32,207 bases of DNA from NCBI GenBank assembly GCA_947377275.1, contig CANCFV010000026.1, positions 1 to 32,207 of the forward strand. The letters run 5' to 3'. The notes below the pieces were generated by a model, which was not told where the DNA came from, made no database searches, and saw only the letters and a list, made by a program, of their open reading frames with translations. A program made the translations under genes and the position numbers. The stretch comes from Burkholderiales bacterium (GTDB lineage: Bacteria; Pseudomonadota; Gammaproteobacteria; Burkholderiales; Burkholderiaceae_C). Below are positions 2,374 to 24,554 of this stretch, in pieces (the stretch's first letter is position 1; every line of letters begins with the position of its first letter).

Positions 2374-2394
2374 GGTTTGTGGCCCCCGTGGGCC
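2361..2394. other. Two palindromes between the MpaB-like gene and ilvA
   Basis: CCCTAGA-C-TCTAGGG (2361-2375) is a perfect 15-bp palindrome that contains the TAG stop of the upstream gene. It is followed by GGCCC-CCGT-GGGCC (2381-2394). No U-run follows either. They may act as operator and/or weak terminator in the 48-bp gap before ilvA. Confidence 0.35.
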
Positions 2395-2421
2395 TTGTCC
2401 TGATCCCGGAGCTTGATCCCC

Positions 2422-4050: not shown

Positions 4051-4057
4051 GCCTGGA

Positions 4058-4624: not shown

Positions 4625-4802
4625 GATCGCCCCATTATGATGGCTGTTGCTCAGCGCACGCACTCGGAACTGACCCTGGAACCTCGGGTTGATCCCGCAT
4701 AGAACGCGCTGCGGTGTCGTGCATGCTTGCGCCCTCGGAACCAATGGCTGTGCAGCAGGTCATTCACCCATGGTTCTTTGACTGTATGTTTCGGAAATGG
4801 AC
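4625..4802. promoter_or_regulatory. Divergent gspC-gspG control region
   Basis: This 178-bp non-coding stretch must hold the promoters for gspC (minus) and the long gspG-F operon (plus). An exact direct repeat CTCGGAAC occurs at 4663-4670 and 4734-4741, 71 bp apart, and GTGCATG occurs at 4719-4725. I could not place a convincing -35/-10 pair. Confidence 0.4.
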
Positions 4803-5252: not shown

Positions 5253-5739
5253 GTCGCGCCTCGCGCGGGGCTTCACCCTGCTGGAATTGATGGTGGTGGT
5301 TGCCATGATCGCCATCACCACGGCCGTGGTCTCGTTCGCCATTCCTGACACCTCCACCACACGGCTGGAGAGGGAAGCCGCGCGTCTGATTGCGTTGCTG
5401 GAGTCTGCGCGCACGCAGGCGCGATCGGGCGCCATGACCGTGCTGTGGGTGCCGCAGCCCAACGGCCAGGATGCCGACTACCAGTTCCTGGGTTTGCCCG
5501 CAGCGCTGATGCCCCCTTTGAAATGGATGGAGCGCGACACCCAAGCCGAAGTGGTGGGTGGTCGAAGCATTGTGTTGGGCCCTGAGCCTGTGATCGGCGC
5601 GCAAAGCGTGATCCTGCGGGTCGAAGACAAGCAAATCATCGTGGGCACCGATGGGCTGAGTCCATTTGACGTGTTGACCGGCGGTGCCTCGGGTGACGCG
5701 GTGGGCGACCTGCCCCAAGGAGCCCCTCGTGCGCCCTGA
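5227..5739 (+). CDS. gspH: Type II secretion minor pseudopilin GspH
   Basis: About 170 residues from ATG 5227, preceded by GAAGG; ATG 5179 is also possible. The prepilin motif is RG-FTLLELMVVVAMIAI with Glu at +5. Downstream residues such as TTRLEREAARLIALLESARTQARSGAMTV are typical of GspH/FimT-like pseudopilins. It is a minor component of the pseudopilus. It overlaps gspG by 26 bp and gspI by 11 bp, which points to translational coupling within the operon. Confidence 0.9.
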   Translation: MPTSVPGSKSRLARGFTLLELMVVVAMIAITTAVVSFAIPDTSTTRLEREAARLIALLESARTQARSGAMTVLWVPQPNGQDADYQFLGLPAALMPPLKWMERDTQAEVVGGRSIVLGPEPVIGAQSVILRVEDKQIIVGTDGLSPFDVLTGGASGDAVGDLPQGAPRAP

Positions 5740-6121
5740 TCCTTGCGCCCTGGCTTCGGCACGCGCAGGCGAGCGCGGCATGACCCTGATCGAGGTCTTG
5801 GTGGCCTTGGCCATCGTGGCCATCACGCTGGCCTCAGGCATCAAAGCGGCGGGTGGCTTGACGGTCAATGCCCAGCGCATGAGCGACCTGACCGCGGCGC
5901 AGTGGTGTGCGGAAAATCAGCTCACCGCACTGCGTTTGGGCAAGATATTTCCGCCCGTGGGCGACAGCGATTTCACTTGTCAGCAGATGGGGCGTGAGTT
6001 GCCCGGTCACATGGTGATCCGCCCGACCCCCAATCAAAACTTCCGTCGTGTGGACGCCCAAGTCATGGACGAGGCGCAGCAACCGATTGTCAAGATCTCG
6101 ACCGTCTTGCCACGCTTCTGA
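5729..6121 (+). CDS. gspI: Type II secretion minor pseudopilin GspI
   Basis: 130 residues. The start is read as GTG 5729 because AAGGAG (5717-5722) lies 6 bases upstream and the resulting leader leads into RG-MTLIEVLVALAIV. Met at +1 and Glu at +5 are the GspI prepilin signature. GspI forms the pseudopilus tip complex with GspJ and GspK. The body has the expected AQWCAENQL segment. It overlaps the end of gspH by 11 bp; the gspJ ATG follows its stop by one base. A longer reading from ATG 5684 would push back into gspH and lacks a ribosome binding site. Confidence 0.92.
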   Translation: MRPDPCALASARAGERGMTLIEVLVALAIVAITLASGIKAAGGLTVNAQRMSDLTAAQWCAENQLTALRLGKIFPPVGDSDFTCQQMGRELPGHMVIRPTPNQNFRRVDAQVMDEAQQPIVKISTVLPRF

Positions 6122-6122
6122 C

Positions 6123-6863
6123 ATGGTTGCAGCACGCCTTTCCGCTCCCCCACTGGTCGCTTCATGTCGCCATGGGCGCAGCATGGGCTTCACGCTCATT
6201 GAGGTCCTGGTGTCCTTGTTGATTCTGTCGGTGCTCGCCGCCACGGCCTGGAAAGGGGTCGATGCCATGAGTTCTGCCCGCCAGGTGGCGGACGGCAATC
6301 TGAAGCAGACGCTGCGTTTGCAGTCCGTGATGGCGCAGCTGGAAGCCGACCTGGCGCAGGTGATGGACACGATGGTGGTTGCCGGCATGCAGTTTGACGG
6401 GGCGAACCTGCGCATGACGCGGCGCAGCGGTGCCGGTGTGCAGGTGGTGGTGTGGTCGCTGAGGCAAGGCCGCTGGCAGCGATGGGCGAGCCCCGTCACC
6501 TCGAAGGTGGGGGAGCTGCAGGATTTTTGGGCCCGCTCCATGCAGTTGCAGGGCAAAGAAGCTGGCACGCTGACGGCCCTCCAAGGCGTCGAGCAGTGGC
6601 AGGTTTACTGTTTCCGCAGCGGGGCCATGAGCAATTGCCAGTCGACAGGCAACCTGGCGCAGGCCAATGCGGCTCAGGCGAAGCAGGCGGCCGCTGCGGC
6701 CACCACCACAGCGGCCGCCGCCGCGGCTGCCGCTGCGGCGAATTTGTCGAGAGAGCAGTTGCCCAGCGCCATTCGCTGCCGCTTGATCCTGGGTGAGGGC
6801 AGTGGCGTCTCTGGCATGGTCACCCGTGATCTGCTGCTGGCCCCCCAGCCCAACCAGAACTGA
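6123..6863 (+). CDS. gspJ: Type II secretion minor pseudopilin GspJ with poly-Ala insertion
   Basis: 246 residues. The prepilin motif MG-FTLIEVLVSLLILSVLA has Glu at +5. After it, AATAWKGVDAM and QLEADLAQV fit GspJ, the tip-complex partner of GspI and GspK. The odd feature is a low-complexity stretch at about residues 189-206 (five Ala, three Thr, ten Ala; 6687-6740), followed by a return to family-like sequence (LPSAIRCRLIL). It starts one base after the gspI stop (TGACATG), and its own stop is followed 8 bases later by the gspK start. Confidence 0.92.
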   Translation: MVAARLSAPPLVASCRHGRSMGFTLIEVLVSLLILSVLAATAWKGVDAMSSARQVADGNLKQTLRLQSVMAQLEADLAQVMDTMVVAGMQFDGANLRMTRRSGAGVQVVVWSLRQGRWQRWASPVTSKVGELQDFWARSMQLQGKEAGTLTALQGVEQWQVYCFRSGAMSNCQSTGNLAQANAAQAKQAAAAATTTAAAAAAAAAANLSREQLPSAIRCRLILGEGSGVSGMVTRDLLLAPQPNQN

Positions 6864-6871
6864 GGCCCGGC

Positions 6872-7903
6872 ATGACACCCAAAGGCAAGTGGCGATCACA
6901 AGGGGCGATTTCACGGCCACGTCAACATGGCGCGGCCTTGCTGATGGCCATGGTCATCGTGACGCTCGTGGCCACCCTGGCCTCGTCGATGGTCTGGCAG
7001 CAATGGCGCGCCGTGCAGATCGAAGGGGCTGAGCGGGTGCGCTCTCAGGCCAGTTGGGTGTTGATCGGTGCCCTCGACTGGGCTCGCTTGATTTTGCGCG
7101 AGGACCAGCGCAATGGAGGAGCCGATCATCTGGGTGAGCCCTGGGCCATTCCCTTGGCCGAGGCGCGCTTGTCGACGTTCCTGGCCTCCGATGCGAACAA
7201 CAACACCGAGTCGGACGACTCGCCCGAGGCGTTCTTGTCTGGCAAGGTCGAAGACGCCACGGCCAAGTACAACTTGCGCAATGTGCTGGGGCCGGACGGC
7301 GAGTTGATTCCGGATGAGGTGGCGGTGCTCAAGCGCATCTGTGAGCTGGCGAGCCAGTCTCCAGCCTTGGGCGATGGCATTGCCCAAGCGCTTCGCAAAG
7401 CCGCTTTGGCGGTGCAGGTCGGCGATGCGAGCGCCTTGGAGCGTTTGGGTGGCGAACCCGCTCGCTTGCAGGCGCCGCTCTTGCCCCAAACGATCGACCA
7501 GTTGACCTGGTTGGGCTTGGATGCGGGTACGGTCGAGCGGCTTCGCCCGTTCCTGACCTTGTTGCCTGAGCAGTCCAGGGTCAACGTCAACACCGCCTCC
7601 AAGGAGGTGATTGCCGCGGCCGAGGGCCTGGACCTGGCGCGTGCCGGACGCCTGGTGCAGGCCCGTCAGCGCAATCCGTTCAAGTCGGTGGACGAGTTGC
7701 GGGATGTGTTGGGCACACCCAACTGGACGCCGGTGCGCTTGAGTGTGCAATCCGATTTCTTCGAGGTGCGAGGCCGTTTGCGTTTCGAAGACAACGTGAT
7801 CGAGCAGCGGCACCTTGTCCAGCGCACGGGCGGGGATGTGGTGGTGCGCAACCAGTCTCGCTTTTCTGGTTTGGACCGGGGCGTGGCAGCCACTACCCCA
7901 TGA
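6872..7903 (+). CDS. gspK: Type II secretion minor pseudopilin GspK
   Basis: 343 residues, the large minor pseudopilin. The N-terminal helix begins HG-AALLMAMVIVTLVATLA and lacks Glu at +5, which is normal for GspK, the tip subunit. SWVLIGALDWARLIL and KYNLRNVLGPDGE follow, as in the family. Near the C-terminus VNVNTASKEVIAAA and NPFKSVDELRDVLG match the helix-hairpin-helix (SAM-like) region. ATG 6872 has GAGG upstream at the end of gspJ. It caps the pseudopilus with GspI and GspJ. A 124-bp gap then separates it from gspL, the largest gap inside the operon; it contains TACAAT at 7968-7973 but no well-spaced -35. Confidence 0.94.
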   Translation: MTPKGKWRSQGAISRPRQHGAALLMAMVIVTLVATLASSMVWQQWRAVQIEGAERVRSQASWVLIGALDWARLILREDQRNGGADHLGEPWAIPLAEARLSTFLASDANNNTESDDSPEAFLSGKVEDATAKYNLRNVLGPDGELIPDEVAVLKRICELASQSPALGDGIAQALRKAALAVQVGDASALERLGGEPARLQAPLLPQTIDQLTWLGLDAGTVERLRPFLTLLPEQSRVNVNTASKEVIAAAEGLDLARAGRLVQARQRNPFKSVDELRDVLGTPNWTPVRLSVQSDFFEVRGRLRFEDNVIEQRHLVQRTGGDVVVRNQSRFSGLDRGVAATTP

Positions 7904-8027
7904 ATCGGGCGTTTGCGCTCTGTGCAAACAGGTATCTATCCTTAAACGGGTGCTATTTCGGCGCTCCTACAATGCGGTGGCATCTATGCTGGGTGCTGCA
8001 ACACACTGACCATTTGACCGTCCGGGC

Positions 8028-9293
8028 ATGAGCATCCTCATCATCCAACTGCCAGCGCGCACGCGTTTGGGCGCCAATCAGGCCGCTGCCGAGGCAGGGG
8101 CCGCGGCAACGCCTGCCTCGCCCAAGGAGTACAGCTATGTGCTCAGCGCCGACGGGTTCTCTGCTTCACGGCAAGGCAGAGCCACTGCGGCTGCACTGCC
8201 CAAGGCGGACAGCGTCGTGGCGGTGATGGCGGCCACCGACATCAGCTGGCATCGCCTGACCGTGCCCAAGGCCCCACAAGCTCGCTTGCGCGCTGCGCTG
8301 GCCAGCATGCTCGAAGAGTCCTTGCTGGACGATCCGGACGACATGCACCTCGCGCTGGCACCCACCGCCAAAGCGGGTCAAGCCGGTTGGGTGGCTGCGT
8401 TGAACCACACTTGGGTGACCGCGCAGCTCATGGCCCTTGAAAAGGCCAAGGTGCGTGTGGAGCGTGTGGTGCCGGGCGTGTCGCCTGATGAGCCCGCATC
8501 GGCTTACTTTCACGAGGTGCATGACACCGGTGGCAGCGACGCCGAATCTGGCGCCGAGATGTTGCTGACCTGGTCCAGTGCCGATGGTGTTGCCACGTGG
8601 CCGGTGTCCGGCAGCTTGGCGCGCGGCTTGTTGCCCGACCCGCTGCCGGTGCAAGCCCGCTTTTTTGCAACGCCCCCAGTGGCCTCGCCTGCCGAGCGCT
8701 GGTTGGGGCGTGCGGTGACGGTTCAGAGCCAGCCAGAGCACATGCTGCTGGCCTCGCGGTCTTTGTGGAACCTGCTGCAGTTTGAGCTCACGCCGCGCAG
8801 CAAGGGCTTGTACGCCGTGACCGACCAATGGCGCCGCTTGATGAGCCCGCAGTGGCGCCCAGCGCGTGTGGGCCTGTTGGCGCTGGTCGCCTCCCAGGTC
8901 TTGGGGCTGAACCTGTGGGCTTGGCACGAGAAGCAGCAGGTCAAGGCCAAGCGCGCCGAGATGATCCAGGTGCTCCGGCAAGCGCACCCGCAGGTGGTGG
9001 CGGTGCTGGACGCACAGGTTCAAATGCAAAGGGAAACAGAAGCCTTGCGGGCGCAAGCTGGGCAGGCGGGTGACAACGACTTGGAGGCCCTGATGGCCGC
9101 CGTGGCGATCGCCTGGCCTCCAGCGCAGCCCGCCGCCGCATTGCAGTATGACGGCGCCAGTTTGATCCTGATGCCCCCCGCCACGTGGGGGCCAGCCGAG
9201 CTGGAGCAGATGCGCAACAGGCTCAGCGGATCAGGCGTGCAGATCGAGTTCGCTGATGGCCGTTTGTCGGTGCGGCGCGCCCCGCGTGGCTGA
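8028..9293 (+). CDS. gspL: Type II secretion inner-membrane protein GspL
   Basis: 421 residues. The cytoplasmic N-terminal part (about 1-275) corresponds to the actin-like fold that binds GspE; TDISWHRLTVPKAPQARLRAAL and EESLLDDPDDMHLAL are family-like. One transmembrane helix lies near residues 280-300 (VGLLALVASQVLGLNLWAW). The periplasmic ferredoxin-like part contains LEALMAAVAIAWPPAQ and ALQYDGASLIL. GspL recruits the ATPase GspE to the membrane and pairs with GspM. It is separated from gspK by 124 bp and from gspM by 23 bp. Confidence 0.93.
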   Translation: MSILIIQLPARTRLGANQAAAEAGAAATPASPKEYSYVLSADGFSASRQGRATAAALPKADSVVAVMAATDISWHRLTVPKAPQARLRAALASMLEESLLDDPDDMHLALAPTAKAGQAGWVAALNHTWVTAQLMALEKAKVRVERVVPGVSPDEPASAYFHEVHDTGGSDAESGAEMLLTWSSADGVATWPVSGSLARGLLPDPLPVQARFFATPPVASPAERWLGRAVTVQSQPEHMLLASRSLWNLLQFELTPRSKGLYAVTDQWRRLMSPQWRPARVGLLALVASQVLGLNLWAWHEKQQVKAKRAEMIQVLRQAHPQVVAVLDAQVQMQRETEALRAQAGQAGDNDLEALMAAVAIAWPPAQPAAALQYDGASLILMPPATWGPAELEQMRNRLSGSGVQIEFADGRLSVRRAPRG

Positions 9294-9316
9294 GACCTGA
9301 AACGGAAACAAGCAGC

Positions 9317-9832
9317 ATGAGCGAATCATCGGTATCCCTTCAGGCCTTTCGCCAAGAGTGGCAGTCCAAATGGGCCGCGCTGGCCCCGCGCGAGCGCCAA
9401 CTCGCCACCGCGGCTGCCTGGTTGTTCACCTTGGCTTTGCTGGTGCTGCTGGGCATTCGTCCGGCGTGGCGAACCTTGTCTGAAACCCCCACGCAGTTGC
9501 GTGAAGCCGATGCGCAGCTCGATGCCATGAGGCGCATGGCCGACGAAGTGCAGGCTTTGCGCCAACGCCCGCTAGTTCCACCTGCGCAAGCCGAGGCGGC
9601 ACTCAAAGCCGCCACCGATCGTTTGGGCTCAGGGGCTCGTTTGAGCGTGCAAGCCGATCGGGTCACGCTCACGGTCACCCAGGTGTCAGGTGATGCCTTG
9701 GCGACTTGGCTGGAGGACGTTCGCACGTCTGCGCGTGCGCGCCCCAGCGAGGCAGCCTTGCAGCAGGGCGAGCCTGGGCAGTATTCAGGCAGCATCTCTC
9801 TGGTCTTGGCGCCAGGCGCAGCCAACCGTTGA
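9317..9832 (+). CDS. gspM: Type II secretion inner-membrane protein GspM
   Basis: 171 residues with the layout of GspM: a short cytoplasmic head, one transmembrane helix (about 29-47, ATAAAWLFTLALLVLLGI), a heptad-like amphipathic region (LREADAQLDAMRRMADEVQALR) and a small periplasmic domain ending in GQYSGSISLVLAPG. It partners GspL in the assembly platform. The sequence is poorly conserved in this family, so the call relies on topology and on the place between gspL and gspN. GGAAA lies 10-14 bases before the ATG. Confidence 0.88.
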   Translation: MSESSVSLQAFRQEWQSKWAALAPRERQLATAAAWLFTLALLVLLGIRPAWRTLSETPTQLREADAQLDAMRRMADEVQALRQRPLVPPAQAEAALKAATDRLGSGARLSVQADRVTLTVTQVSGDALATWLEDVRTSARARPSEAALQQGEPGQYSGSISLVLAPGAANR

Positions 9833-9850
9833 GAAAGCACCGAGCCCACC

Positions 9851-10771
9851 ATGTCAGGTCCGTCTTTCTTCAACCGTCGCCCCGCCTGGATGCAGGGCGC
9901 TGGTGCCGTGACCACGCGGTGGCTGGAGTCCACGCTGGAGATGGCTCGGTGGGAGAACATGCGCAAAGCCGGTCGCCGCTGGGGCTGGTGGGGGGCTGGT
10001 GTGGGTGCCTTGATGGGCATCGTCATTTACGCCCCAGCGTGCTGGTTGGCCCAAGCCATCGTGGTGTTGACCGATCAGCGCTTGCTGCTGGCCGAGTCGC
10101 AGGGCACGATCTGGCGTGGCGATGCGGTGGCCGTATTGACGGGCGGTGCAGGCAGCCGCGATGCCCGGACCCTGCCTGGCCGTGTCAACTGGACCTTGCG
10201 CATGCAAGGGCTTTCTTTGCGCCTGACCCTGCAACACGATTGCTGCATGCCCACCCCGGTGGTGATCGCCATCAAGCCAGGCTGGCAGCGGGTGGAGGGG
10301 CGCTTGCTGTTGCAGCCTGAGCCTGATGCGGTGGCGCAAACGTCGGGTGAAATCGGTCGTTGGCCCGCCGCTTGGTTGGGCGGATTGGGCACCCCCTGGA
10401 ACACCTTGCAGCTCAGTGGCGCGCTGCGCCTGTCATCCTCTGATCTGGCATTTGAATGGGTGCAGGGGCGTCTGCGCGTGCAGGGGCAAGCTGCCGTGTT
10501 TTTGGATGACGTCGCGTCGCGTGTGACCACCTTGGACCGCCTGGGTTCGTACCGCATGGACGTGAGCACTGACCCCCAGGGGCAGGTTCAGTTGCGTTTG
10601 AGCACGCACGACGGCGCTTTGCAGCTCTCGGGTGAGGGCGGGGCCGGTGCCTCAGGCTTGCGATTCCGCGGCGAGGCGCGTGCCAGCGAGGCAGAGCGCG
10701 GCGCTTTGGACAATTTGTTGAACATCATCGGGCGCCGCGAGGGCGACCGATCAGTCATTTCGATCGGATAA
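9851..10771 (+). CDS. gspN: Type II secretion protein GspN
   Basis: 306 residues, one transmembrane helix near the N-terminus (about 44-66), then a periplasmic beta-rich domain. LLAESQGTIWRGDAV and LPGRVNWTLRMQG are characteristic of GspN, as are LSGALRLSS and the later GALQLSGEG. GspN is an accessory component present in only some type II systems and its exact role is not settled. The N-terminus up to residue 43 is unusually long and basic/aromatic. It lies 18 bp after gspM and only 3 bp before gspD. Confidence 0.9.
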   Translation: MSGPSFFNRRPAWMQGAGAVTTRWLESTLEMARWENMRKAGRRWGWWGAGVGALMGIVIYAPACWLAQAIVVLTDQRLLLAESQGTIWRGDAVAVLTGGAGSRDARTLPGRVNWTLRMQGLSLRLTLQHDCCMPTPVVIAIKPGWQRVEGRLLLQPEPDAVAQTSGEIGRWPAAWLGGLGTPWNTLQLSGALRLSSSDLAFEWVQGRLRVQGQAAVFLDDVASRVTTLDRLGSYRMDVSTDPQGQVQLRLSTHDGALQLSGEGGAGASGLRFRGEARASEAERGALDNLLNIIGRREGDRSVISIG

Positions 10772-10774
10772 GGC

Positions 10775-13015
10775 ATGAAGACCCATCCCCTGCTGACTCG
10801 TCCCCGCGCCACGGCGCTGGTCATGGCGCTGGCGCTCTCCTTTGGGCCCGGCGGCTTCTTGCCTGTGGGCTTGGCCTGGGCGGCGCCGGCGGTCAAACGG
10901 AGCGCACCCACGGTGACGCTCAATTTCGTGAACGCTGAAATCGAAGGTGTGGCTCGCGCGATGGCCGCCATCGTGGACCGCCAGATCCTGGTCGATCCGC
11001 GTGTGAAGGGGGCAGTCACGCTGTACAGCGATCAGCCCTTGACGCCCCGAGAGGCTTACCTGAATTTCCTGGCGGCCTTGCGCGGCCAGGGGTTCAGTGT
11101 GGTCGAGGTGGCTGGCTTGCTCAAGATCGTGCCCGAGGCCGAAGCCAAGCTGCAAACGGGCGTGGTGGACGTGGGTGCGGTCAAGCGCTCGGGTGACCAG
11201 GTGCTCACGCAGATCTTTCGATTGCAGTTTGAAAACGCCAACAACCTGGTGGCGGCGTTGCGGCCCTTGATCAGCCCGAACAACACGATCAACGCCAACG
11301 CGTCGACCAACACGCTGGTCATCACAGACTACGCAGACAACCTGCAGCGCATGGGCCAGATGATTGCCGCGTTGGACGTGCCCACGGCCACCGACATGGA
11401 GGCCATCCCGCTGCAATACGCCATCGCCGCCGATTTGGCCACCGTGGTGCAAAAGCTCGCCGATGGCAACACGACGGCAGGTGCACCCGGCGGCGCGGCA
11501 GGGCAGGGCACGCTGGTCATGTCTGACCCACGCACCAACACCTTGATGGTGCGCGCGCCCAACGCGGCTCGCATGTCTTTCATCCGCAGCCTGGTGCAGC
11601 GCCTGGATCGCCCTGGCACCTCGGGGCTGGGCGGCAGTGGCATCCACGTGGTCTACCTCAAGAACGCCGATGCGGTGAAGTTGGCGCAGGTGCTGCGGGC
11701 GTCATTCCCTGGCGCAGGCGGGTCCAACAGTGGTTCGGGCGGTTCTGGCTCGGGGGGCGCATCGGGCGGCGGCATGCCCAACAACGGCAACAGCGGTGGC
11801 CTGGCCAATGCCAGCGGCGGCACCTCGCAGCAGTCGACCTCGCCTGTGGCGGCTTCGGCGCAGCCTTCAACGGGCGGCTTCATCCAGGCCGACCCCAGCA
11901 CCAACTCACTGATCATCACGGCCACCGACGCGCTGTACAGGCAGCTGCGCGCTGTGATCGACCAACTCGACGGCCGCCGCGCGCAGGTCTACATCGAGGC
12001 CATGATCGTCGAGGTCAATGAGAACAAGCTGGCCGAGGCGGGCTTCCAGTGGGCCGCAGCGGCCGGCAACAACAACCTAGTCGGTGCGGGCACCAACCTG
12101 GCCAACGGCAACATTTCGGGCTTGTTCAGCCTGGCCAACGCTTCGCGCTCGACCGTGGCCGGCCTCAAAGGTTTCACGGTGGGCTTTGCACACAAGCTGG
12201 CCGATGGCACCTACAACCTGGGCGCCTTGGCCAGTTTCCTGGAAACCAATGCTGACGGCAATGTGCTGTCCAAGCCGAACATGATCGCGCTGGACAACGA
12301 AGAGGCCAAGATCGTGGTGGGGCAGAACGTGCCTTTCGTGACGGGCTCCTATTCGAATTCGGGCTCGACGACCAACGGCACGGTCAACCCCTTCACCACG
12401 GTGGAGCGCAAAGACGTGGGCCTGACCTTGCGCGTCAAACCGCAGGTGGGCGAGGGCGGCACGGTGCGCATGACGGTGTTCCAAGAGAACTCCTCGGTGG
12501 ACCCCGCCAGCAAAACGTCCACCAGTGGCTTGACCACCAACAAGAGCGCGATCGAGACCACGGTCGTGATCGACGATGGCCAAACCCTGGTGCTGGGCGG
12601 CCTGTTGACCGACTCTTACAACAGCGGCGACACGCAGGTGCCCCTGCTGGGTGACATTCCCATCTTGGGCAACCTGTTCAAGAGCCGCTCGCGCGAGCGC
12701 AACAAGAAGAACCTGATGGTGTTCTTGCGCCCGGTGGTCATGCGCACGCAAGAGGCCAGCACGGCCTTGACCCTGGACCGCTACGACTACATGCGCCAAC
12801 GTCAGGCCGAGGTGGCACCCCCGCCCAGCACGGTGCTGCAGGTCAATGATGCGCCCGCGCTCGACCCGCTCAAGCTCAGCAACCAGTTGACCATGCCCTC
12901 GGTGCGCCAGCCGCTCGACGACCCCAATGCGGCGCAGCCCAACGTCGTGATGCCCAAAGACTCCGGCTATGTGCCGCGCTTGACGCCGCAGGTTCAGCCT
13001 GCTGCCACGAAGTGA
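10775..13015 (+). CDS. gspD: Type II secretion secretin GspD
   Basis: 746 residues. A signal peptide with likely cleavage after AWA (about residue 36) is followed by the N0 domain ([17 protein letters not shown], about 45-120). N1-N3 domains follow, each with repeats such as LINPNNTINA-like and [11 protein letters not shown] segments. The third ring domain is interrupted by a Gly/Ser/Asn-rich insertion at about 312-368. The C-terminal secretin barrel (about 400-655) carries [17 protein letters not shown], the secretin signature. The protein forms the outer-membrane pore. No pilotin gene is seen in the window. GGATAAGG, overlapping the gspN stop, serves as its ribosome binding site. Confidence 0.97.
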
Positions 13016-13031
13016 TCGGGAAGCGTTGAAC

Positions 13032-14456
13032 ATGGCCATTCGCCACCCCCTTCCTTATGCCTTCGCCAAGGCCAACGGCATCTTGCTGGAGGCCGACGAT
13101 GAGCGCACCACCCTGTGGGCCAGCCAGAAGGTGTCGCCCTCGGCCCTGTCTGAGGTGATGCGACTGTACGTGGTCAACAGCATCGAGCACGAGGCCGATG
13201 AAACCCTGGGCCAGCGCATCGCCACAGCTTATGCCGGCGGTGGTGGCAGCGCCGCGGCGGTGGTCGGCGAGGTCGAAAGCGCGGTGGACTTGTCTCGCAT
13301 GATGCAAGACCTGCCTGCAGTGGAAGACTTGCTGGAAGCGTCGAACGACGCGCCCATCATCCGCATGCTCAATGCACTGCTGACGCAAGCTGCCAAAGAC
13401 GGCGCCTCTGACATCCACATTGAGCCCTACGAGCGCTCGTCTGCCGTGCGCTTTCGGGTGGACGGCACGCTGCGCGAGGTGGTGCAGCCCAACAAGGCTT
13501 TGCACGCCGCGCTGATCTCGCGCCTGAAGATCATGGCCGAGCTCGACATCTCTGAAAAGCGCTTGCCGCAAGACGGGCGCATCAGCCTGCGCATTGGCGG
13601 CCGTGCCGTTGACGTGCGGGTCTCGACCTTGCCGTCCAGCCATGGCGAACGCGCTGTGTTGCGGATCCTGGACAAGGGCGACGCGAACAAGTTCACCCTC
13701 GAGTCGCTGGGCATGAGCGGCGACTCACTCGACCGCTTCAAGCGCCTGCTGCGCCAGCCGCACGGCATCGTGCTGGTCACCGGCCCCACGGGCTCGGGCA
13801 AAACCACCACGCTGTATGCCGGCTTGAGCACCGTCGATGCCGCCACCACCAACGTCTTGACCGTGGAAGACCCGGTCGAGTACGAGCTGTCTGGCATCGG
13901 GCAGACACAGGTCAACCCCAAGATCGAGTTGACCTTTGCCAAGGCCTTGCGTGCCATCTTGCGACAAGACCCGGACGTCATCATGATCGGTGAAATCCGC
14001 GACTTCGAAACCGCGCAGATCGCTGTGCAGGCGTCGCTGACCGGTCACTTGGTGCTGGCCACGCTGCACACCAACGACGCGCCGAGCGCCGTCACCCGCT
14101 TGACCGACATGGGCATCGAGCCTTTCTTGCTGTCGTCGTCGCTGTTGGGCGTGTTGGCCCAGCGCCTGGTGCGCAAGCTGTGCCCGCATTGCAAACGCCA
14201 AGATGGCGGCGGCAAGTGGCACCCGGTGGGCTGCAGCGAGTGCGGCATGAGCGGCTACAAGGGCCGAACCGGCGTTTACGAGCTGATGGTGGCCGACGAC
14301 GACATTCGTGGACTGATCCACAGCCAGGCCGCCGAGTCGCGCTTGTTTGAAGTGGCCCAATTGGGCGGCATGAAGACCATGCGCGACGACGGCGACCGCT
14401 TGGTGGCCGAGGGCGTCACCTCGCTCGAAGAAGTGCTGCGGGTCACCCGCGAATAA
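13032..14456 (+). CDS. gspE: Type II secretion ATPase GspE
   Basis: 474 residues from ATG 13032, with GGGAAG 8 bases upstream; an in-frame TTG at 13026 is less likely. The N2E domain is followed by the RecA-like motor. Walker A is GPTGSGKT (251-258), the Asp box LTVEDPVEY, Walker [15 protein letters not shown] (about 311-324), and the His box [15 protein letters not shown] (339-353). A four-cysteine metal motif (Cys 384, 387, 401, 404) has only 13 residues between the two pairs. The protein powers pseudopilus assembly from the cytoplasmic side, bound to GspL and GspF. It sits between gspD and gspF, as in many T2SS loci. Confidence 0.96.
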
Positions 14457-16606: not shown

Positions 16607-19034
16607 TCAGTGTTTCTGCCCTGAAGGGTTTATGCAGCACCGGCAGGCCGCTGTCTGCCAACTGGGTCAGGTTCTCGGGCAGGGTGTCGCCGGTGATGAT
16701 CAGGGCGGGCAGGTCGGGCTGGCTCTGGCGCAGGTGGTGGACCACGTCGCGGCCCGTGCCGTCTGACAGGCGGTGGTCCGAGATGACCAGGTCCCAGCGC
16801 TGAGGTGCTTGGGCGTGGGCCCAGGCCACATCGCCCCCAGACTGAACGCTCATGCCCCAGCTTTGCAGCACGCTGACCAGGGCGTGCCGGATGGCGGGCT
16901 CGTCTTCGATCACCAACACGTTCTGGGCCGTCGGGCCTGAGCGCGCGCGTTGCGCGGGGCTCAAGGGCGGCGCGGCTTGCGTCACGCGCTCTGTGTGACG
17001 CGGCACCGTGACGCCAAAGCACGAGCCTTGGCCCACCACCGTGTTGAGTTCCAGCGGGTGCGCCAGCACTTGGGTTGCTCGCCGCACAATGGCCAGGCCC
17101 AAGCCCAGGCCCTTGGTGCGGTCGCGGCCGGGGTTGCCCACCTGCACGAATTCTTCAAAGATGCGTTTGCGGTCTTGCTCTGCAATGCCGCTGCCCGTGT
17201 CCCACACCTGGATGCGCCACCCTGCCGCGGTGCCTCGCACGCCCACCAGCACGCCGCCTTGCGTGGTGTGGCGCACCGCATTGCCAATGAGGTTGCGCAA
17301 GATCTGCTCAAGCAAGATGGGGTCGGTGTGGGCCACAGCCTGTGTGGGGCGCACGCGCAGCGACAGGCCTTTGTGGTGGGCGTTCTCGGCCTCGTGGCTG
17401 GCGATCGACTCGAGCAAGGGCTGCAGTCGCACGCGTTGGCGTTGGATGTCGACGGTGCCGGAGTCCAAGCGAGACAGGTCCAGCAGGCCTTTGAGCAGGC
17501 TTTCCATAGAAGAGACCGCGCGCGTGAGCCGGTCGGTCAGGCCGCGCAAGGCGGGGTCGCTGAGCTGGCCCCGCAGCAGGTCGGTGATCAGCCCGATGGC
17601 GGCCACCGGCTGGCGCAGGTCGTGGCTGGCCGAGGCCAGGAAGTGGCTTTTGGCGGCATTGGCGGCAGCCAGCTGGCTGGTGCGTTCGGCCACCTTGGTT
17701 TCGAGGTTGGCGTTGACGCCCTCAATTTGGTTGAAGGCGCTGACCACGCGCGACATCACGATCACCGCGAACGCCGGCATGGCCATGGGCACGGCGGCCG
17801 TCAGCCACAGGCGGTGCGAGACCTCGCCCAGCAGGCGGATCCAGATGAAGTCGTGCACGCCGGCGATCAGCACGCCGCCCCAGCCCACGATCAGCCCGAC
17901 CGCGGCGTTGCGGTCCAGGCGGTCGCGGTGTTTGAGCACCCACCAGGGGCCGGGCAACATCAGCGGCAGCAGCAGGGCTTGCAGCACGTTGCGTGTGCGC
18001 TCCAACTCGTGGTCAAACGGCGCGGCCAGCAAACCGATCAGGCCAAAGCCAATCAGCACCACCCACAGCAGCCGGTTGAACCAACGCACATGCAGCCCCA
18101 AGATGGCCATCACGAACCAACCCTGGGTGCAGTCGGTGACCACGTGCGCCATGAAATACAGCCAGGCAGACACGGTCGTGTTGATGCCGAAGTCTTGCGT
18201 GACGAAATAGGCCGTGTTGCGCAGCGAGGCCACCAGCAACATGATGCCAAACAGGCCGGCGGTGCTTTCTTGGCGCCGCATGAGCCACAGGATGATCATG
18301 AAGGCCGCGAAGGTGGTGCTGGCCGTGTTCATGCCGATCAGCAGGTCGCGCCCGATCGCCTCATGCCACATGAACCCGGGCGTGAGGGTTTTGCGCAGGT
18401 TCAGCACCGGCTGTGACATGCCGCCCTGCTGCACGCAGTGCACCTCGATCACCAACTGGTTGTTGCCGGAAATGAGCAGGCCTTTGGGCAGGTCGACCAG
18501 CAAGCTGCTGGAGCCCGCCCGCCAGTCTGGCCGGGACACGGTGTTGCGCAGCAGGTAGCCATTGAGCCAGATGCGGTGCACGTGGCTGATGTGGTCAAAG
18601 CGGATGGCCCAGGCAGGGCTTTGGGCTTCAGACACCGCCGGGTGGTTCAGCACGAACTGGGTGGTGTAGCGCGCCACGCCGGACGAGGGCAGGCCTTGGC
18701 GCTTCCAGCTGTCGGGCAGCGACACGGCCTTGGGCTCACCCAGGGGGCGGATGTCGCTGTCGTCGTATTGCCAGAACTGCCGCTGGTGGCTGATCCATTG
18801 CACGTCAGCATGGGTACCAGGCAGGGGCTGGATCCACCAGATGGCCCACAGCAGCAACAGCAGCAAGCCCAGCGTGGCGCCCCACCAACGACGCAGCCAG
18901 GCCAGCGCGGGGTGCTTCGCCGCAGCGAGGGGCATCCTTGCTTCGGACGCAGCGGGTGACAGGGTGGACGTGGGCATGCGGGCGCGCGCAACAAAGGGTT
19001 CCGGTGCTGCATTGTGCGCACTTCGCCGCACCAT
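16563..19034 (-). CDS. Hybrid sensor histidine kinase with 7TM-type sensor and C-terminal receiver
   Basis: 823 residues from the ATG at 19034, which has AGGGGGA 9 bases upstream; ATG 18977 or 18935 are alternatives. A first membrane helix (about 51-67) is followed by a periplasmic beta-sandwich-like domain (about 70-230). A block of several membrane helices (about 235-430) follows, as in 7TMR-DISM sensors. A short coiled linker leads to the HisKA domain with FLASASHDLRQPVAA (His about 471). The HATPase domain has NLIGNAVRHT, DTGSGI and GLGLGLAIV. The end is a receiver domain (about 705-820) with phospho-acceptor Asp 753 in LVISDHRLSDG and a conserved HKPFR. It converges on the LuxR-type regulator at 15803. 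The signal sensed is unknown; a carbohydrate-like ligand would fit the sensor type but is only a guess. Confidence 0.92.
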   Translation of the reverse strand: MVRRSAHNAAPEPFVARARMPTSTLSPAASEARMPLAAAKHPALAWLRRWWGATLGLLLLLLWAIWWIQPLPGTHADVQWISHQRQFWQYDDSDIRPLGEPKAVSLPDSWKRQGLPSSGVARYTTQFVLNHPAVSEAQSPAWAIRFDHISHVHRIWLNGYLLRNTVSRPDWRAGSSSLLVDLPKGLLISGNNQLVIEVHCVQQGGMSQPVLNLRKTLTPGFMWHEAIGRDLLIGMNTASTTFAAFMIILWLMRRQESTAGLFGIMLLVASLRNTAYFVTQDFGINTTVSAWLYFMAHVVTDCTQGWFVMAILGLHVRWFNRLLWVVLIGFGLIGLLAAPFDHELERTRNVLQALLLPLMLPGPWWVLKHRDRLDRNAAVGLIVGWGGVLIAGVHDFIWIRLLGEVSHRLWLTAAVPMAMPAFAVIVMSRVVSAFNQIEGVNANLETKVAERTSQLAAANAAKSHFLASASHDLRQPVAAIGLITDLLRGQLSDPALRGLTDRLTRAVSSMESLLKGLLDLSRLDSGTVDIQRQRVRLQPLLESIASHEAENAHHKGLSLRVRPTQAVAHTDPILLEQILRNLIGNAVRHTTQGGVLVGVRGTAAGWRIQVWDTGSGIAEQDRKRIFEEFVQVGNPGRDRTKGLGLGLAIVRRATQVLAHPLELNTVVGQGSCFGVTVPRHTERVTQAAPPLSPAQRARSGPTAQNVLVIEDEPAIRHALVSVLQSWGMSVQSGGDVAWAHAQAPQRWDLVISDHRLSDGTGRDVVHHLRQSQPDLPALIITGDTLPENLTQLADSGLPVLHKPFRAETLRAMIDSIMAPQRAT

Positions 19035-19066
19035 CTGGCATGGTCCCCCTTTTCGGCGAGGGCAGT

Positions 19067-19091
19067 GGGTGATATGAACGGGGCATCACCC
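19067..19091. other. Inverted repeat between kinase gene and AAA ATPase gene
   Basis: GGGTGAT (19067-19073) and ATCACCC (19085-19091) are perfect 7-base arms around 11 bases, in the 132-bp divergent region between the kinase (minus) and the AAA ATPase (plus). It is a possible operator for either gene. Confidence 0.3.
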
Positions 19092-19166
19092 CCTTGTTCA
19101 CGGGCTCTTGCGCGAATCGCTTTGCTGCAATCATGGTGTGAACGTGTCCACTGCTGGAGGACTGAC

Positions 19167-20177
19167 ATGAGCCGCTGTACCGACCTCGTCCCTGTGCAAC
19201 GAGATGACTTCAGTGGGCGCATACCGATTGCGCACATGCGTTCTGTCTACCGGCTCGACGAGGTCGAGCTCAAGCTGGGCAAGTTGCCCCCGCGTGAACA
19301 CGAGTCGCTGCGCGCCACCTACGAGCGCATGATCGAAAAGGGTGCCGACCGCTTCCAGGTCAAGCCCTCGGGCCTGCCGGCCATGGACCACCTCTACGAC
19401 GAGCTGCCCAACTTCCACCCCGTGCTCAACGACCTGCGACGCCAATTGGCCTTGTGCAGCGACAGCCGCGATGCGCTGGAGATCACGCCCATGCTGCTGC
19501 TGGGACCGCCCGGGGTGGGCAAGACCCACTTTGCCCGTGAGGTGGCGCAGTTGCTGGGCACCGGCCTGGGTTTTGTCTCGATGAGTTCATTGACCGCCGG
19601 CTGGGTGCTGTCAGGCTCGTCCAGCCAGTGGAAGGGCGCACGCCCGGGCAAGGTGTTTGAAACGCTGGTCGACGGACAGTACGCCAACCCCGTGATGGTG
19701 GTGGACGAGATCGACAAGGCCGGGGGCGAGCACGCGTATGACCCCTTGGGCTCGCTTTACAGCCTGCTCGAGCACGACACGGCGGGCACCTTCACCGACG
19801 AGTTCGCCGAGGTGCCGGTAGACGCCAGCCAGGTGATCTGGGTGGCCACGGCCAACGACGCGCGCAGCATCCCCGACCCCATCCTCAACCGCATGAACGT
19901 GTTCGAGATCGACATGCCCGATGAGGCCGCTGCGCGCCAGATCGCCGCCAAGCTGTACCGCAGCATCCGCGCTGACCACGACTGGGGGAAGCGATTCGAC
20001 CCCGAGCTTGGCGAGGCCGCGCTCGATGCGCTCAGCCACAGCGCACCGCGCGAGATGCGTCGGGCCTTGATGACGGGCTTTGGCAACGCCAAGCTCGACG
20101 GCCGTTGCCGCATCGAGTTGCGCGATTTGCCCGACCCAGGCGCGGGCAAGCGCCAGCCGATCGGCTTCATGCAATGA
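19167..20177 (+). CDS. Stand-alone Lon-like AAA+ ATPase
   Basis: 336 residues from ATG 19167, with GGAGG 5 bases upstream. Walker A is GPPGVGKT (113-120) and Walker B is VMVVDE (176-181). The stretch DPLGSLYSLLEHDTAGTFTD, then EVPVDASQVIWVATAND, IPDPILNRMNVFEI, follows the ATPase module of Lon protease almost motif by motif, including sensor 1 Asn and the Arg of NRM. The Lon substrate-binding N-domain and the Ser-Lys protease domain are both absent; the first 105 residues are a helical region without a known motif. The protein is probably a cytoplasmic remodelling ATPase. Its partner is unknown; the next gene, 77 bp downstream, is a 5'-nucleotidase. Confidence 0.85.
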   Translation: MSRCTDLVPVQRDDFSGRIPIAHMRSVYRLDEVELKLGKLPPREHESLRATYERMIEKGADRFQVKPSGLPAMDHLYDELPNFHPVLNDLRRQLALCSDSRDALEITPMLLLGPPGVGKTHFAREVAQLLGTGLGFVSMSSLTAGWVLSGSSSQWKGARPGKVFETLVDGQYANPVMVVDEIDKAGGEHAYDPLGSLYSLLEHDTAGTFTDEFAEVPVDASQVIWVATANDARSIPDPILNRMNVFEIDMPDEAAARQIAAKLYRSIRADHDWGKRFDPELGEAALDALSHSAPREMRRALMTGFGNAKLDGRCRIELRDLPDPGAGKRQPIGFMQ

Positions 20178-21168: not shown

Positions 21169-21192
21169 GCCGCCTGAGGCGCCCTCAGCGGC
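21169..21192. terminator. Candidate bidirectional hairpin between convergent genes
   Basis: CTGAGG (21174-21179) pairs with CCTCAG (21183-21188) around CGC. The stem is extended by GCCG/CGGC with one bulged C. It spans the junction between the 5'-nucleotidase stop and the MOSC gene stop. No clear U-run follows on either side, so efficiency as an intrinsic terminator is doubtful. Confidence 0.35.
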
Positions 21193-21829
21193 GCTTCATC
21201 TTGGTCTTGAACAGCTCTGCGATGCTGACCTCGCGCGGCCCCGGGATGAGTTCGTAAGACTCGCCCGCAGCGATGGTGCCCGGGGTGCGCACCGCCAGGT
21301 AAAAGCCGCAGTAACCCGACTGGGCCATCATCTTGACGGCCTGCGCAAAGCCCATGACGTGCGCGAATTTGTAGCAAGGTTGGCGTGGCTCGCTGATGGC
21401 CAGCGTGCAATCAGGGAACTGCAGCACATCGCCGATGTGCGCGTCGGCCTCGAGCAAACCGGTGATCGTCAGGTTCTCGCCCAGCATGCCGTGCGGCAGC
21501 GCCTCGTCCCACGGCTGCGCGCCCGCCTGGCTGCGCACCGTTTGCCAAAAGGGGTAGTGCTGCTGCGGGTAGGCGTAAACGGCCTTGCTCAAGCCGCCGT
21601 GCACGGTGGGGTCGGCTTGATCATCGCCTTCGAGGCCCATGGCCTTCACGGCGATGCGGGTGGGCTGCGCCAGCGTGCTCACTGGGCGCTTGCCGATGGC
21701 CGTCAGGATGCGGTGTCCCTCGATCATCACGTGCTCTGCCTGGGCCACATTGACCGAAAGCAGTTGGCGGGTGGTGCTGACCGGGGGCGTGGGGGTGGGG
21801 GCTGGCGCGCTTGACATGTCCATCAGCAT
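21185..21829 (-). CDS. MOSC domain protein (YiiM-like)
   Basis: 214 residues from ATG 21829, with AAGG 5 bases upstream. MOSC features are present: GLEGDDQADPTVHGGLSKAV, then YPQQHYPFW, GMLGENLTITGL and the conserved Cys 152 in SEPRQPCYK, the expected sulfur-carrying residue. The tail SGYCGFYLAV with the segment after it matches the 3-alpha region of YiiM. MOSC proteins act with molybdenum-cofactor enzymes or as sulfur carriers; E. coli YiiM takes part in detoxifying N-hydroxylated base analogues. It starts 34 bp after the end of the modC-like gene on the same strand, so it is probably the fourth gene of the transporter operon. Confidence 0.88.
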   Translation of the reverse strand: MLMDMSSAPAPTPTPPVSTTRQLLSVNVAQAEHVMIEGHRILTAIGKRPVSTLAQPTRIAVKAMGLEGDDQADPTVHGGLSKAVYAYPQQHYPFWQTVRSQAGAQPWDEALPHGMLGENLTITGLLEADAHIGDVLQFPDCTLAISEPRQPCYKFAHVMGFAQAVKMMAQSGYCGFYLAVRTPGTIAAGESYELIPGPREVSIAELFKTKMKRR

Positions 21830-21863: not shown

Positions 21864-23012
21864 CTATCGCCAGGCGCTCACCGTGGTGGCCATGGGCTCA
21901 AAACCCACCACGCAGGCCTGCCCGGGCGCCCATGCCATTTGCTGGATGGCGCGCCGGGTCGTCAGTGCCCAAAGCGTGGACTTGCTGGGCTGGCGGGGGT
22001 CTGAGTGGTCGTGCACTTGGTCGAGGGCCACGCCCACGGCGCCGTAGGTGCCGTGTTCACCGGCCAGCATGATTTGCGTGATGCGCCCGCGCAGGTGGTT
22101 GGTGGCGCTTGTGTCTTGCGGGACCTCGCGGTGCAGCGTCAGGTCACGCGCGCGCAGCTTGATGCGCACCTTGGCTTTGACGGGGTGCAGCATGGCGGGC
22201 ACCATCAGGCGCTGGCCGCTGACGTCGACCTCGCTGAGCAGCCAGGCGATGTCGTGGCGTTTGACCTCACCCTCGAGCACGCTGCCGGCGTGCACGCCTT
22301 CGAGGAACGTGGCCAAAGACACGTCAGACAAAATCTGCGCTGCGGGGCCGGCCGTGGCCATGCGCCCCTCGTGCAGGATCACCACCTCGTCGGCCAGGCG
22401 GATGACCTCGTTCATGCGGGGGCTCACGAACACCACGGGCAGCCCAAAGCGCGTGGTGGCATCGGCCAGCAGGTCGAGTTCGGCCTCGATGTCGCTCGTC
22501 GGGATCTCGGCGAATGGGTCGTCGAACAGCAGCGCGTTGGGTGCCGACAGCACGGCGCGGCCCAGCGCCACGCGCCAACGCTGCGTGGCGTTGAGCTGTT
22601 CAGGGTGGTGGTTCAGCACCCCGGCCAGGTCCAACCAGTTGACGATGCGCTCGAACGTGGGCCCCGGGCGGGTGGCGCGCAGGCCCACCGTGCCGTATTG
22701 CAGGTTGGCGCGCACGTTCAGGTGCGGGAACAGGTGACCATGGGCGTCGATCCAGGCCAAGCGGCGTTCATGGGCGGGCTTGTTGATGCGCGCGGTGGCG
22801 TCAAACAGGGCCTCGTTGCCCAGGGCCACACGCCCGCCCTTGGCCGGGATCAGGCCGGCGGCGGCTTGCAGCATCGCGCTTTTGCCCGAGCCAGACCGGC
22901 CCAGCAGCGCGCACACTTTGCCAGGCAGGGCGCGGAACTGCGCTTGCACGTCCAGCCCGGGCTGTTGCAGGCGCAGCTCAATGCTCAAGGCCCGTGGCAG
23001 GGGGCGGCTCAT
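21864..23012 (-). CDS. ModC-like ABC transporter ATP-binding protein with degenerate catalytic motifs
   Basis: 382 residues with the overall plan of ModC, the molybdate importer ATPase. An N-terminal nucleotide-binding domain is followed by a C-terminal Mod-type beta domain (KAKVRIKLRARDLTLH, then LRGRITQIML). Walker A is intact (GRSGSGKS, 38-45). Aligned to canonical ModC, the Q-loop Gln is Ala90 (WIDAHGHLFPHL). The LSGGQ signature reads LNATQ (140-144). The Walker B Glu is Asp165 (LLFDDP). The D-loop Asp is Pro171 and the switch His is Pro198 (FVSPRMNEV). The remaining fold-defining sequence is well kept, so this is not random decay. The ModB-like permease gene lies 10 bp upstream. It may be a weak or regulatory ATPase. 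Confidence 0.85.
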   Translation of the reverse strand: MSRPLPRALSIELRLQQPGLDVQAQFRALPGKVCALLGRSGSGKSAMLQAAAGLIPAKGGRVALGNEALFDATARINKPAHERRLAWIDAHGHLFPHLNVRANLQYGTVGLRATRPGPTFERIVNWLDLAGVLNHHPEQLNATQRWRVALGRAVLSAPNALLFDDPFAEIPTSDIEAELDLLADATTRFGLPVVFVSPRMNEVIRLADEVVILHEGRMATAGPAAQILSDVSLATFLEGVHAGSVLEGEVKRHDIAWLLSEVDVSGQRLMVPAMLHPVKAKVRIKLRARDLTLHREVPQDTSATNHLRGRITQIMLAGEHGTYGAVGVALDQVHDHSDPRQPSKSTLWALTTRRAIQQMAWAPGQACVVGFEPMATTVSAWR

Positions 23013-23022
23013 GGCGCGGGCC

Positions 23023-23745
23023 TCATGTGGGTTTGACCCCCAGCCCGATGGGCTTGAGCCGCGCCTGCCAGCGGCGGCGCCAGCGCTGGCGGCCCCACTC
23101 GCTCAGGGTCACAGCGGCCAGGGCCACCAGCAGCGACACCCACGCGATGTGCCAGGCGGTGTCCAGGCCATGGGGCTCTTGTTGCAGCGCTTTCACCAAG
23201 GCCACCGGCGCGGTGGTGTCTCCCAAGGCTTGGGGCTGGAGGGCGGCGGCCAGCACAAGGGTGGCGCCAGCCTCGCCCCAGGCGGCGGCCAGGCCCAAGG
23301 CCATGGCCGAGCCGACCGCGGGCCAGGCCAGTGGCAAGGTCACCGTCCACCAGCCCTGCCAGCGTGACGCACCCAAGGTGCGGGCCACGGGCAGCAGCAA
23401 GGTGTCGGTGGCCTCGAAGGCGGGGCGCAACACCCGCACCATCAAGGGCAGGGTCATCAGGCTGGCCGCGAAGATGGCGCCGCTCGGGAAAAAGCTGAGC
23501 TGAGTGCCAGTGAGTTCATGCAGCCAGCCGCCTGAACTACCGAGCCCCGTCAACAAGGCCAGGCCGATCACGGCGGGCGGCAGGCCCATGGGCAGCAAGA
23601 TGAGGGTGTCGAGCGCCAGCTTGCCGCGCCATCGCGTGCGCGCCATCACGGTGGCCAGCACCACGGCCAAGGGCGTGCTGATCAGCACCGTGCCCAGGGC
23701 CACTTGCAGGCTCAGCCAGAGGGCTTGGAGTTCGAAGTCGGACAT
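23023..23745 (-). CDS. ModB-like ABC transporter permease
   Basis: 240 residues from ATG 23745 (MSDFELQALWLSL). Five or more membrane helices are visible. LILLPMGLPPAVIGLALL, SLMTLPLMVRVLRPAFE and the coupling loop ARTLGASRWQGWWTVTLP match ModB permeases of the molybdate importer. The motif GEFGAT of ModB appears as GEAGAT. The protein would form the membrane channel as a homodimer with the ModC-like ATPase. The gene lies 5 bp downstream of the binding-protein gene and 10 bp upstream of the ATPase gene. A longer N-terminal reading is possible but would run deep into the upstream gene. Confidence 0.9.
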   Translation of the reverse strand: MSDFELQALWLSLQVALGTVLISTPLAVVLATVMARTRWRGKLALDTLILLPMGLPPAVIGLALLTGLGSSGGWLHELTGTQLSFFPSGAIFAASLMTLPLMVRVLRPAFEATDTLLLPVARTLGASRWQGWWTVTLPLAWPAVGSAMALGLAAAWGEAGATLVLAAALQPQALGDTTAPVALVKALQQEPHGLDTAWHIAWVSLLVALAAVTLSEWGRQRWRRRWQARLKPIGLGVKPT

Positions 23746-23750
23746 CGTGT

Positions 23751-24554
23751 TCAGCCCTTGACCACTTGCCACGCCGAACCACCGCTTAGCAGCGCGCGGG
23801 TGCCAATCGGGCCTTGCAGCCAGTTCATCAACAAGGGGGCGCCTGCGTGCTTGGCCCGGAAGGAGCGAGCCACCTGCAGCTTGAGCGACAGGCGCGCATC
23901 GCCTTGCAGCCACACTTTCAGGCCCGACCGCATGGCGTTGGGCGCGCTCCAAGCGGCCAGCGTGGTCAAGCGGTACGGCAGGGTTGAGGTGGTGGGCGCC
24001 GCTTTGCCGGGCGCGGGTGCCAGGCCTTTGCTGGCCAGCCCCTGGGTGAGCTGGTCGGCCAGAGCGGCCAGGGCCGAGCCCGCAGGGCCTGCACGCCAAA
24101 GGGCAGCGCCGGCGGCGTGCGCGGCCAGCACCTGGCGCAAGGCTTGGGCCGCGTCACGCTCGGCGCGGATACCGGCCGGGTCATCGGCTGGGCCGACCAA
24201 CATGACGTCGGTGCGCGCCAGCGTGCGGCGGTCGTGGATGAGGCCCTCGCGGTCGAGCCGATCGGCTTCGGGGTGTGACAAGAAGATGCCGGCGTCCACG
24301 GCACCCGCTTCCAGCTGAGACAGCAGGGCCGCGTCATCCAGCGGCTCCCACCGGGCCGCCCAGCCCAGGTCTCGCTTCATGGCCGTGGCCCAGCGCGCGG
24401 CCAGCCCGCTGTCGCCCACCACGGTGGCGGTGCCCACGTGAGGGCTATCGGCCCGTGCCGGCAAAGGCCGTGTCGCCCAAGCCGAACCCGCGACCCCACC
24501 CAGGGCCCAGGCCCCAGACCAGGTCAGACAGGATCGGCGTTGCGCGTTGTGCAT
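23751..24554 (-). CDS. TupA-like periplasmic substrate-binding protein, divergent
   Basis: 267 residues. The N-terminus has a signal peptide with a twin-arginine pair (QRRSCLTWSGAW) and a likely cleavage after AWA, about residue 27. The mature part resembles tungstate-binding TupA: GDSGLAARW, EAGAVDAGIFLSHPEAD, then ARTDVMLVGPADDPAGI, the last close to the FVIVGPKDDPA segment of TupA. The N-terminal TTTS oxyanion motif is replaced by TATV (42-45), and the usual SGTH loop reads PAGSA. The protein feeds the ModB/ModC-like transporter encoded directly downstream. The ligand may be an anion other than tungstate or molybdate. First gene of the minus-strand operon. Confidence 0.82.
   Translation of the reverse strand: MHNAQRRSCLTWSGAWALGGVAGSAWATRPLPARADSPHVGTATVVGDSGLAARWATAMKRDLGWAARWEPLDDAALLSQLEAGAVDAGIFLSHPEADRLDREGLIHDRRTLARTDVMLVGPADDPAGIRAERDAAQALRQVLAAHAAGAALWRAGPAGSALAALADQLTQGLASKGLAPAPGKAAPTTSTLPYRLTTLAAWSAPNAMRSGLKVWLQGDARLSLKLQVARSFRAKHAGAPLLMNWLQGPIGTRALLSGGSAWQVVKG

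Follow-up and report, generated by a model that had tools for sequence, protein, structure and literature searches.

ABC ATPases are usually judged by their motifs. The locus described here raises the question of what a ModC-like protein does, and why it is kept, once most of the residues on which such a judgement rests have been replaced. The window (the whole stretch of DNA that was analysed, 32,207 nucleotides) is one of the 221 contigs of a Burkholderiales genome, which is 86.9% complete and 6.2% contaminated. Its ModC-like gene, whose product we call pseudo-ModC (pModC), has the features given below, with motif residues read in the translation and in an alignment with canonical ModCs, and residue counts given for 36 orthologs.

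21864..23012, minus strand: pModC, 382 aa, with an ABC_tran domain and a putative TOBE-type C-terminal region
22878..22901, minus strand: Walker A GRSGSGKS (residues 38-45), intact in the window; Lys44 in 28 of the 36 orthologs, Gln in 8
22743..22745, minus strand: former Q-loop Gln, now Ala90 (Ala in 18, Gly in 17, Ser in 1)
22581..22595, minus strand: former signature LSGGQ/E, now LNATQ (residues 140-144); Gly142 in none of the 36, Gly143 in 1
22518..22523, minus strand: end of Walker B, Asp164-Asp165, with Glu changed to Asp at 165 (165: Asp in 30, Asn in 5, Gln in 1; 164: Asp in 32, Arg in 2, Ser in 1, Phe in 1)
22500..22502, minus strand: former D-loop Asp, now Pro171 (Pro in 33, His in 2, Ala in 1)
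22419..22421, minus strand: former switch His, now Pro198 (Pro in 35, Asp in 1), with Arg199 in 34 and Met200 in 33
21867..22316, minus strand: C-terminal region (residues 233-382), including a putative TOBE-type domain at about 301-372

The window copy has a single ABC domain (PF00005 ABC_tran, 67.3 bits); among curated models it matches that of ModC best (TIGR02142, 245.8 bits), with a score below the family cut-off of 285.05. The scores of all 36 pModCs against this model range from 227.6 to 269.1 bits, every one below the cut-off. The best PDB relative is also a ModC (3D31), matched with an E value of 4e-37 over residues 27-379 by a profile of 35 orthologs that leaves out L046. The codon composition of the gene, with a GC3 of 0.88 and a GC2 of 0.47, fits an ordinary coding sequence. 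An AlphaFold2 model of the window copy, built from an alignment with the distant relatives L031 and L032, was set aside (mean pLDDT 44.2, pTM 0.48, below 50 in the C-terminal region). Translation and alignment confirmed the coordinates and the replaced residues (Ala90, LNATQ, Asp165, Pro171 and Pro198) of the original prediction, which had been made from the DNA alone and described a ModC-like ATPase that keeps Walker A and has lost all other motifs. GRSGSGKS is indeed intact and five other motifs are replaced, but the Walker B Asp164 is retained. Nor is Walker A retention a defining feature of the group, since its Lys is gone in 8 of the 36 orthologs.

Of the 42 genomes of the genus, the window's own included, 36 encode a pModC ortholog, with identities of 53-72% when the window's copy itself is set aside. 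None of the 36 has the Q-loop Gln, the catalytic Glu, the D-loop Asp or the switch His. As for the signature, its first Gly is missing in 36 and its second in 35, and no ortholog has an intact one. The same columns hold the Gln, both signature Gly, the Asp and the His in every one of the 21 ModC paralogs that the genus has and of the 27 homologs from other genera; the catalytic Glu is present in all 27 of the latter and in 20 of the 21 paralogs. The exception, L090 (G219:C19), is the main ModC of a genome without pModC; it has Gly for the catalytic Glu (LLLLDGP), its other motifs being canonical. The changes, for which chance does not account, are concentrated at ATPase positions, as had been predicted, and the shared substitutions bear out the proposal of a selected subfamily. 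The replacing residues are partly fixed (Pro198 in 35, Pro171 in 33, Asp165 in 30 and Ala or Gly at 90 in 35 of 36), and the former signature is variable among the 36 orthologs.

A quick maximum-likelihood tree was built from 69 proteins, its program warning that long branches meet. In it, the 36 pModCs make up one side of a branch with an SH-aLRT support of 100 and a stem of 1.16 changes per column. Nearest to this clade are four canonical ModCs from other genera (L101-L103 and L116), whose loci have the same ModB-ModC-MOSC gene order as the operon of the genus. Two of these four loci, L101 and G371 (L116/L127), also have the TupA-like solute-binding protein (SBP) and the PEPCK neighbour. No degenerate copy was seen outside the genus: the 27 homologs in the motif alignment are all canonical, as are, by motif, 11 non-genus matches among 399 genomes of the family (E up to 1e-65) and two non-own matches among 399 genomes of the order (E up to 1e-75), these sets sharing some loci. 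Of the 49 genomes matched in one search, the examination covers 30. Since the pModCs form a single clade and only canonical copies were seen outside the genus, the catalytic set would most simply have been lost once, on the stem of the clade and before the sampled species diverged.

Purifying selection on the degenerate protein is evident in close comparisons. In 14 close pairs, which were hand-picked and partly overlap, G159/G217/G218 and G209 occurring more than once, the dN/dS of pModC is 0.049-0.153 (Nei-Gojobori), and the check put forward with the original prediction thus gave no sign of relaxed selection. In the seven pairs for which the canonical ModCs of both genomes were fetched, the latter have values of 0.084-0.240, and pModC is lower in six. 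When all 571 pairs with a dS under 1 are taken together, pModC averages 0.38; the higher dN/dS of deep pairs is tentatively ascribed to saturated dS. A few values for neighbouring genes are unusable (ModB of G224/G213, 2.13; MOSC of G209/G221, not a number) or odd (ModB of G205/G235, with a dS of 0.525 where that of pModC is 0.039), and were taken for fragments from tblastn. Pseudogene features are likewise absent from the reading frames, which are open in all 36 pModCs (377-417 aa, as cut by script).

Constraint has also shifted along the protein. Across the same 19 genomes, the mean pair identity of pModC is 0.634 in the ATPase domain and 0.688 in the C-terminal region, compared with 0.690 and 0.541 for canonical ModC. 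In 149 of 171 pModC pairs, against three of 171 pairs of canonical paralogs, the ATPase domain is the less conserved part and the C-terminal region the more conserved one. From canonical ModC to pModC, identity falls from about 0.87 to 0.62 at residues 141-180 (signature to D-loop) and rises from about 0.47 to 0.77 at residues 221-280. In that C-terminal region, 35 of 35 scanned orthologs match the TOBE domain (PF03459) at E up to 1, the best at 4.9e-11; the window copy's own match, with an E value of 0.061, is below the Pfam cut-off. The putative oxyanion-site residues are largely kept in the 36 pModCs (Ser302 in 32, Asn305 in 36, Thr352 in 36, Arg353 in 36 and Lys372 in 30); in TOBE/Mop domains, residues of this sort bind oxyanion. 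The window copy alone among the 36 has Glu372 and Pro373 for the usual Lys and Ala, which is either real or an assembly error. Because of Glu372 and the sub-cut-off TOBE match, oxyanion binding would be least secure in the window's own genome. A separate Mop-type match above cut-off is found in 24 of the 42 genomes, including that of the window, and pModC is therefore not the sole candidate molybdate binder; the idea that it replaces all molybdate sensing was dropped on the same count.

The genes around pModC in its operon are the following.

23023..23745, minus strand: ModB-like permease without the EAA-motif Glu (PF00528, 56 bits; PRK09421, 164.1 bits, below cut-off; start codon inferred)
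23751..24554, minus strand: TupA-like SBP without the TTTS motif; best PDB relative the tungstate-binding protein 3LR1 (E 5.5e-6)
21185..21829, minus strand: MOSC protein, YiiM-like, of a Moco enzyme family (PF03473, 97.7 bits), downstream of pModC

The most constant of these neighbours is the MOSC gene, which lies directly downstream of pModC on the same strand at 36 of 36 loci, with the Cys of its xPC[YF]K motif retained in all. The adjacency is ancestral, being shared by canonical operons of other genera. The MOSC protein resembles YiiM-type MOSC reductases, which bear on pModC as a neighbour only, and the titles and abstract openings of the open-licence papers that a search turned up reveal no link to a pseudo-ATPase. 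The SBP matches TupA by sequence (3LR1 and 5MY5, E values of 5.5e-6 and 2.2e-4), but unlike TupA it has no TTTS in any of the 22 aligned sequences (one from an outgroup and 21 from genus loci, the latter matched to TupA-like SBP only). According to a TupA study (PMC5517513), TTTS belongs to the TupA site. A TupA-like SBP without TTTS is already present in a genus with canonical ModC (L101:4983-5885), beside a gene that by eye reads like ModA, and the N-termini of these SBPs, also by eye, often resemble twin-arginine signals (RRxFL).

Elsewhere in the window, a Lon-like AAA ATPase domain protein is encoded at 19014-20177 on the plus strand (TIGR00763 matches 154 residues with 116.8 bits, well short of its cut-off), with no protease match; its gene adjoins the operon in most loci of the genus. 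Type II secretion genes occupy 6048-14456 on the plus strand, with K, L, N, secretin D and ATPase E in that order (Pfam). Three long reading frames at 1099-5880 on the minus strand (588, 332 and 231 aa) have a GC3 of 0.61-0.70, lower than the rest, and no Pfam match at E 1e-5. An Rfam scan of the window gave zero matches, so there is no known Moco riboswitch in it.

Together, the motif losses and substitution rates make it very probable that pModC is a pseudo-ATPase under selection, which would no longer act as the motor of an ATP-driven pump. The genus has probably given it a new, ATP-free job. We propose that ATP turnover was lost a single time, in the ancestor of the sampled species, from the ModC belonging to a second molybdate-type importer operon linked to MOSC, and that purifying selection has since then maintained the protein in an ATP-independent capacity. 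The working part would be the C-terminal TOBE domain. In the cytoplasm it would bind molybdate or tungstate, or else some other ligand, and serve the Moco-type MOSC enzyme encoded next door as its holder, sensor or partner. The dead ATPase fold could serve as a dimer scaffold and, where ModB remains, as a docking platform for it. That MOSC is always the neighbour suggests molybdenum-cofactor chemistry, even though the arrangement is ancestral, and the role of pModC as an oxyanion-binding partner of the MOSC enzyme is for now a tentative assignment, somewhat less probable than not. To this explanation as a whole, a pseudo-ATPase that purifying selection maintains for an ATP-independent purpose and that has the suggested TOBE/MOSC role, we assign a probability of about one half. 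In different lineages, pModC has persisted without Walker A, without the permease or without the binding protein.

The main rival is that SBP, ModB and pModC form a de-energised membrane complex, an ATP-free receptor or passive oxyanion channel in which pModC serves ModB as a subunit, be it structural or signalling. All three genes are kept at 29 of the 36 loci, and ModB has a low dN/dS in most pairs. Moreover, 31 of the 32 species that have ModB retain Pro96, beside the Q-loop, and none of the four that lack ModB does. The vicinity of the Q-loop is where the permease docks, and this pattern suggests that the docking face of pModC is still in use where ModB is present. Against such a complex, the EAA-motif Glu, through which the permease docks onto the ATPase, has disappeared, by a count made by eye, from all 32 ModB partners of pModC and is kept in 21 of 21 paralogous and three of three outgroup ModBs. 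In addition, ModB is absent beside four of the 36 pModCs, the SBP then lying directly before pModC. In this clade (L042, L043, L045 and L046, from G209, G221, G229 and G222, respectively) Walker A has turned into GREPA/STQS-like sequences. The SBP is absent beside three pModCs of a different clade. Purifying selection on pModC persists in these lineages, with a dN/dS still at 0.097-0.153 in three pairs without adjacent ModB. On balance, we consider a membrane complex as the reason for keeping pModC rather unlikely.

Next comes an ATP-binding sensor, one of the possibilities raised by the original prediction, in which pModC would bind ATP without turnover and signal. The Lys of Walker A and the Asp of Walker B occur together in 25 of the 36 orthologs, the window copy among them. 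However, the Lys is lost in eight species and the Asp in four, one or both in 11, and the Walker A losses fall in two separate clades of the tree, with no visible relaxed selection in close pairs. ATP binding is therefore not the reason for keeping all pModCs, and this deprives the sensor of support as a general explanation; we regard it as improbable.

Slow decay, in which the operon is being lost piecemeal and pModC is a late relic, has little probability. Pieces are indeed missing by lineage: ModB in four, the SBP in three, ModB and pModC in three, and all but MOSC in one. In G219, G226 and G228 (L137, L134 and L135), the SBP, likewise without TTTS, adjoins MOSC at a distance of 67-172 bp between PEPCK and 5'-nucleotidase genes, and no ModB or ModC match lies between the latter two. 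In G212, the 12.5 kb examined contain MOSC but neither the SBP nor pModC. pModC is thus dispensable in these four genomes and can be lost. No MOSC match was found in G234 and G237, which are 82% and 53% complete. Where pModC is present, though, its open frames and low dN/dS speak against decay, as does the conservation of the replacing residues themselves, Pro171, Pro198, Arg199 and Met200 each being kept in at least 33 of 36 orthologs. Simple decay had also been linked to canonical motifs in the orthologs of close relatives; canonical orthologs occur only in other genera, and all 36 of this genus are degenerate.

The original prediction had further asked for a second, canonical ModC in the same genome, and one is encoded there (G000:C152, 400.8 bits, above the TIGR02142 cut-off). 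Such a ModC is found above cut-off in 33 of the 42 genomes, including 29 of the 36 with pModC. It was not found above cut-off in the other seven, one of which, G201, carries a fragment of it where a contig ends, and pModC is therefore not strictly dependent on one. Within the operon no partner subunit that could complement pModC was found, there being one ModC-like gene per operon at the 23 genus loci with flanks. An ABC site takes Walker A and B, Q and His from one subunit and the signature from the other, and pModC would thus spoil both sites even in a heterodimer. That the operon still encodes an ATP-driven importer, by an altered mechanism or energised through a second ATPase, is consequently very improbable: despite the intact Walker A of the window copy and the canonical ModC elsewhere in its genome, not all pModC genomes have such a ModC above cut-off, both sites would be spoiled and, with the EAA Glu lost in every ModB partner and the permease missing beside four pModCs, a pump that needs another ATPase is unlikely.

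How does the pseudo-ATPase compare with known systems? With the ModC of ModABC (TIGR02142; 3D31) it shares ancestry, domain order, a whole-length profile match and its ModB and MOSC neighbours; it differs in that its catalytic set is replaced and it scores under the family cut-off. Judged from its sequence, pModC is a ModC by ancestry and, by the defining features tested, is predicted not to be a functional one. Degenerate sites are familiar from ABC exporters. Excerpts from the exporter literature (PMC7756269) describe for TM287/288, TAP, CFTR and MRP1 a degenerate site with altered Walker B Glu, switch His and signature, and for such asymmetric exporters one degenerate site out of two, a second working site remaining. 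Going by these excerpts, pModC resembles the exporters in the three elements changed and differs from their asymmetric pairs in that it bears both halves of the lesion, has no pseudo-partner in its operon and is of importer origin. Like molbindins and ModE among the Mop/TOBE proteins, it has a C-terminal domain of putative TOBE type, but this putative oxyanion binder is still fused to a whole ABC fold. The open-licence papers that the searches turned up describe, in their titles and abstract openings, no fully degenerate ModC or importer ATPase family.

An important implication of these findings is that both halves of the ATPase site can be gone from a single subunit of an importer family, as in the 36 species with pModC, with no relaxed selection in close pairs. 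It is possible, if doubtful, that an importer motor has here been turned into an ATP-free protein of the molybdenum pathway, an oxyanion sensor or cofactor partner of a Moco enzyme; in species that still have SBP and ModB, the entire importer would then be a de-energised transmembrane receptor. The finding also carries a warning, namely that an operon annotated as modABC is not necessarily a molybdate transporter. Walker A, the permease and the SBP have each gone missing, singly, in some of the related species, which allows the function of pModC to be tested part by part. The pModC family represents a natural experiment that separates ATP turnover from an ABC fold and the regulatory domain attached to it.
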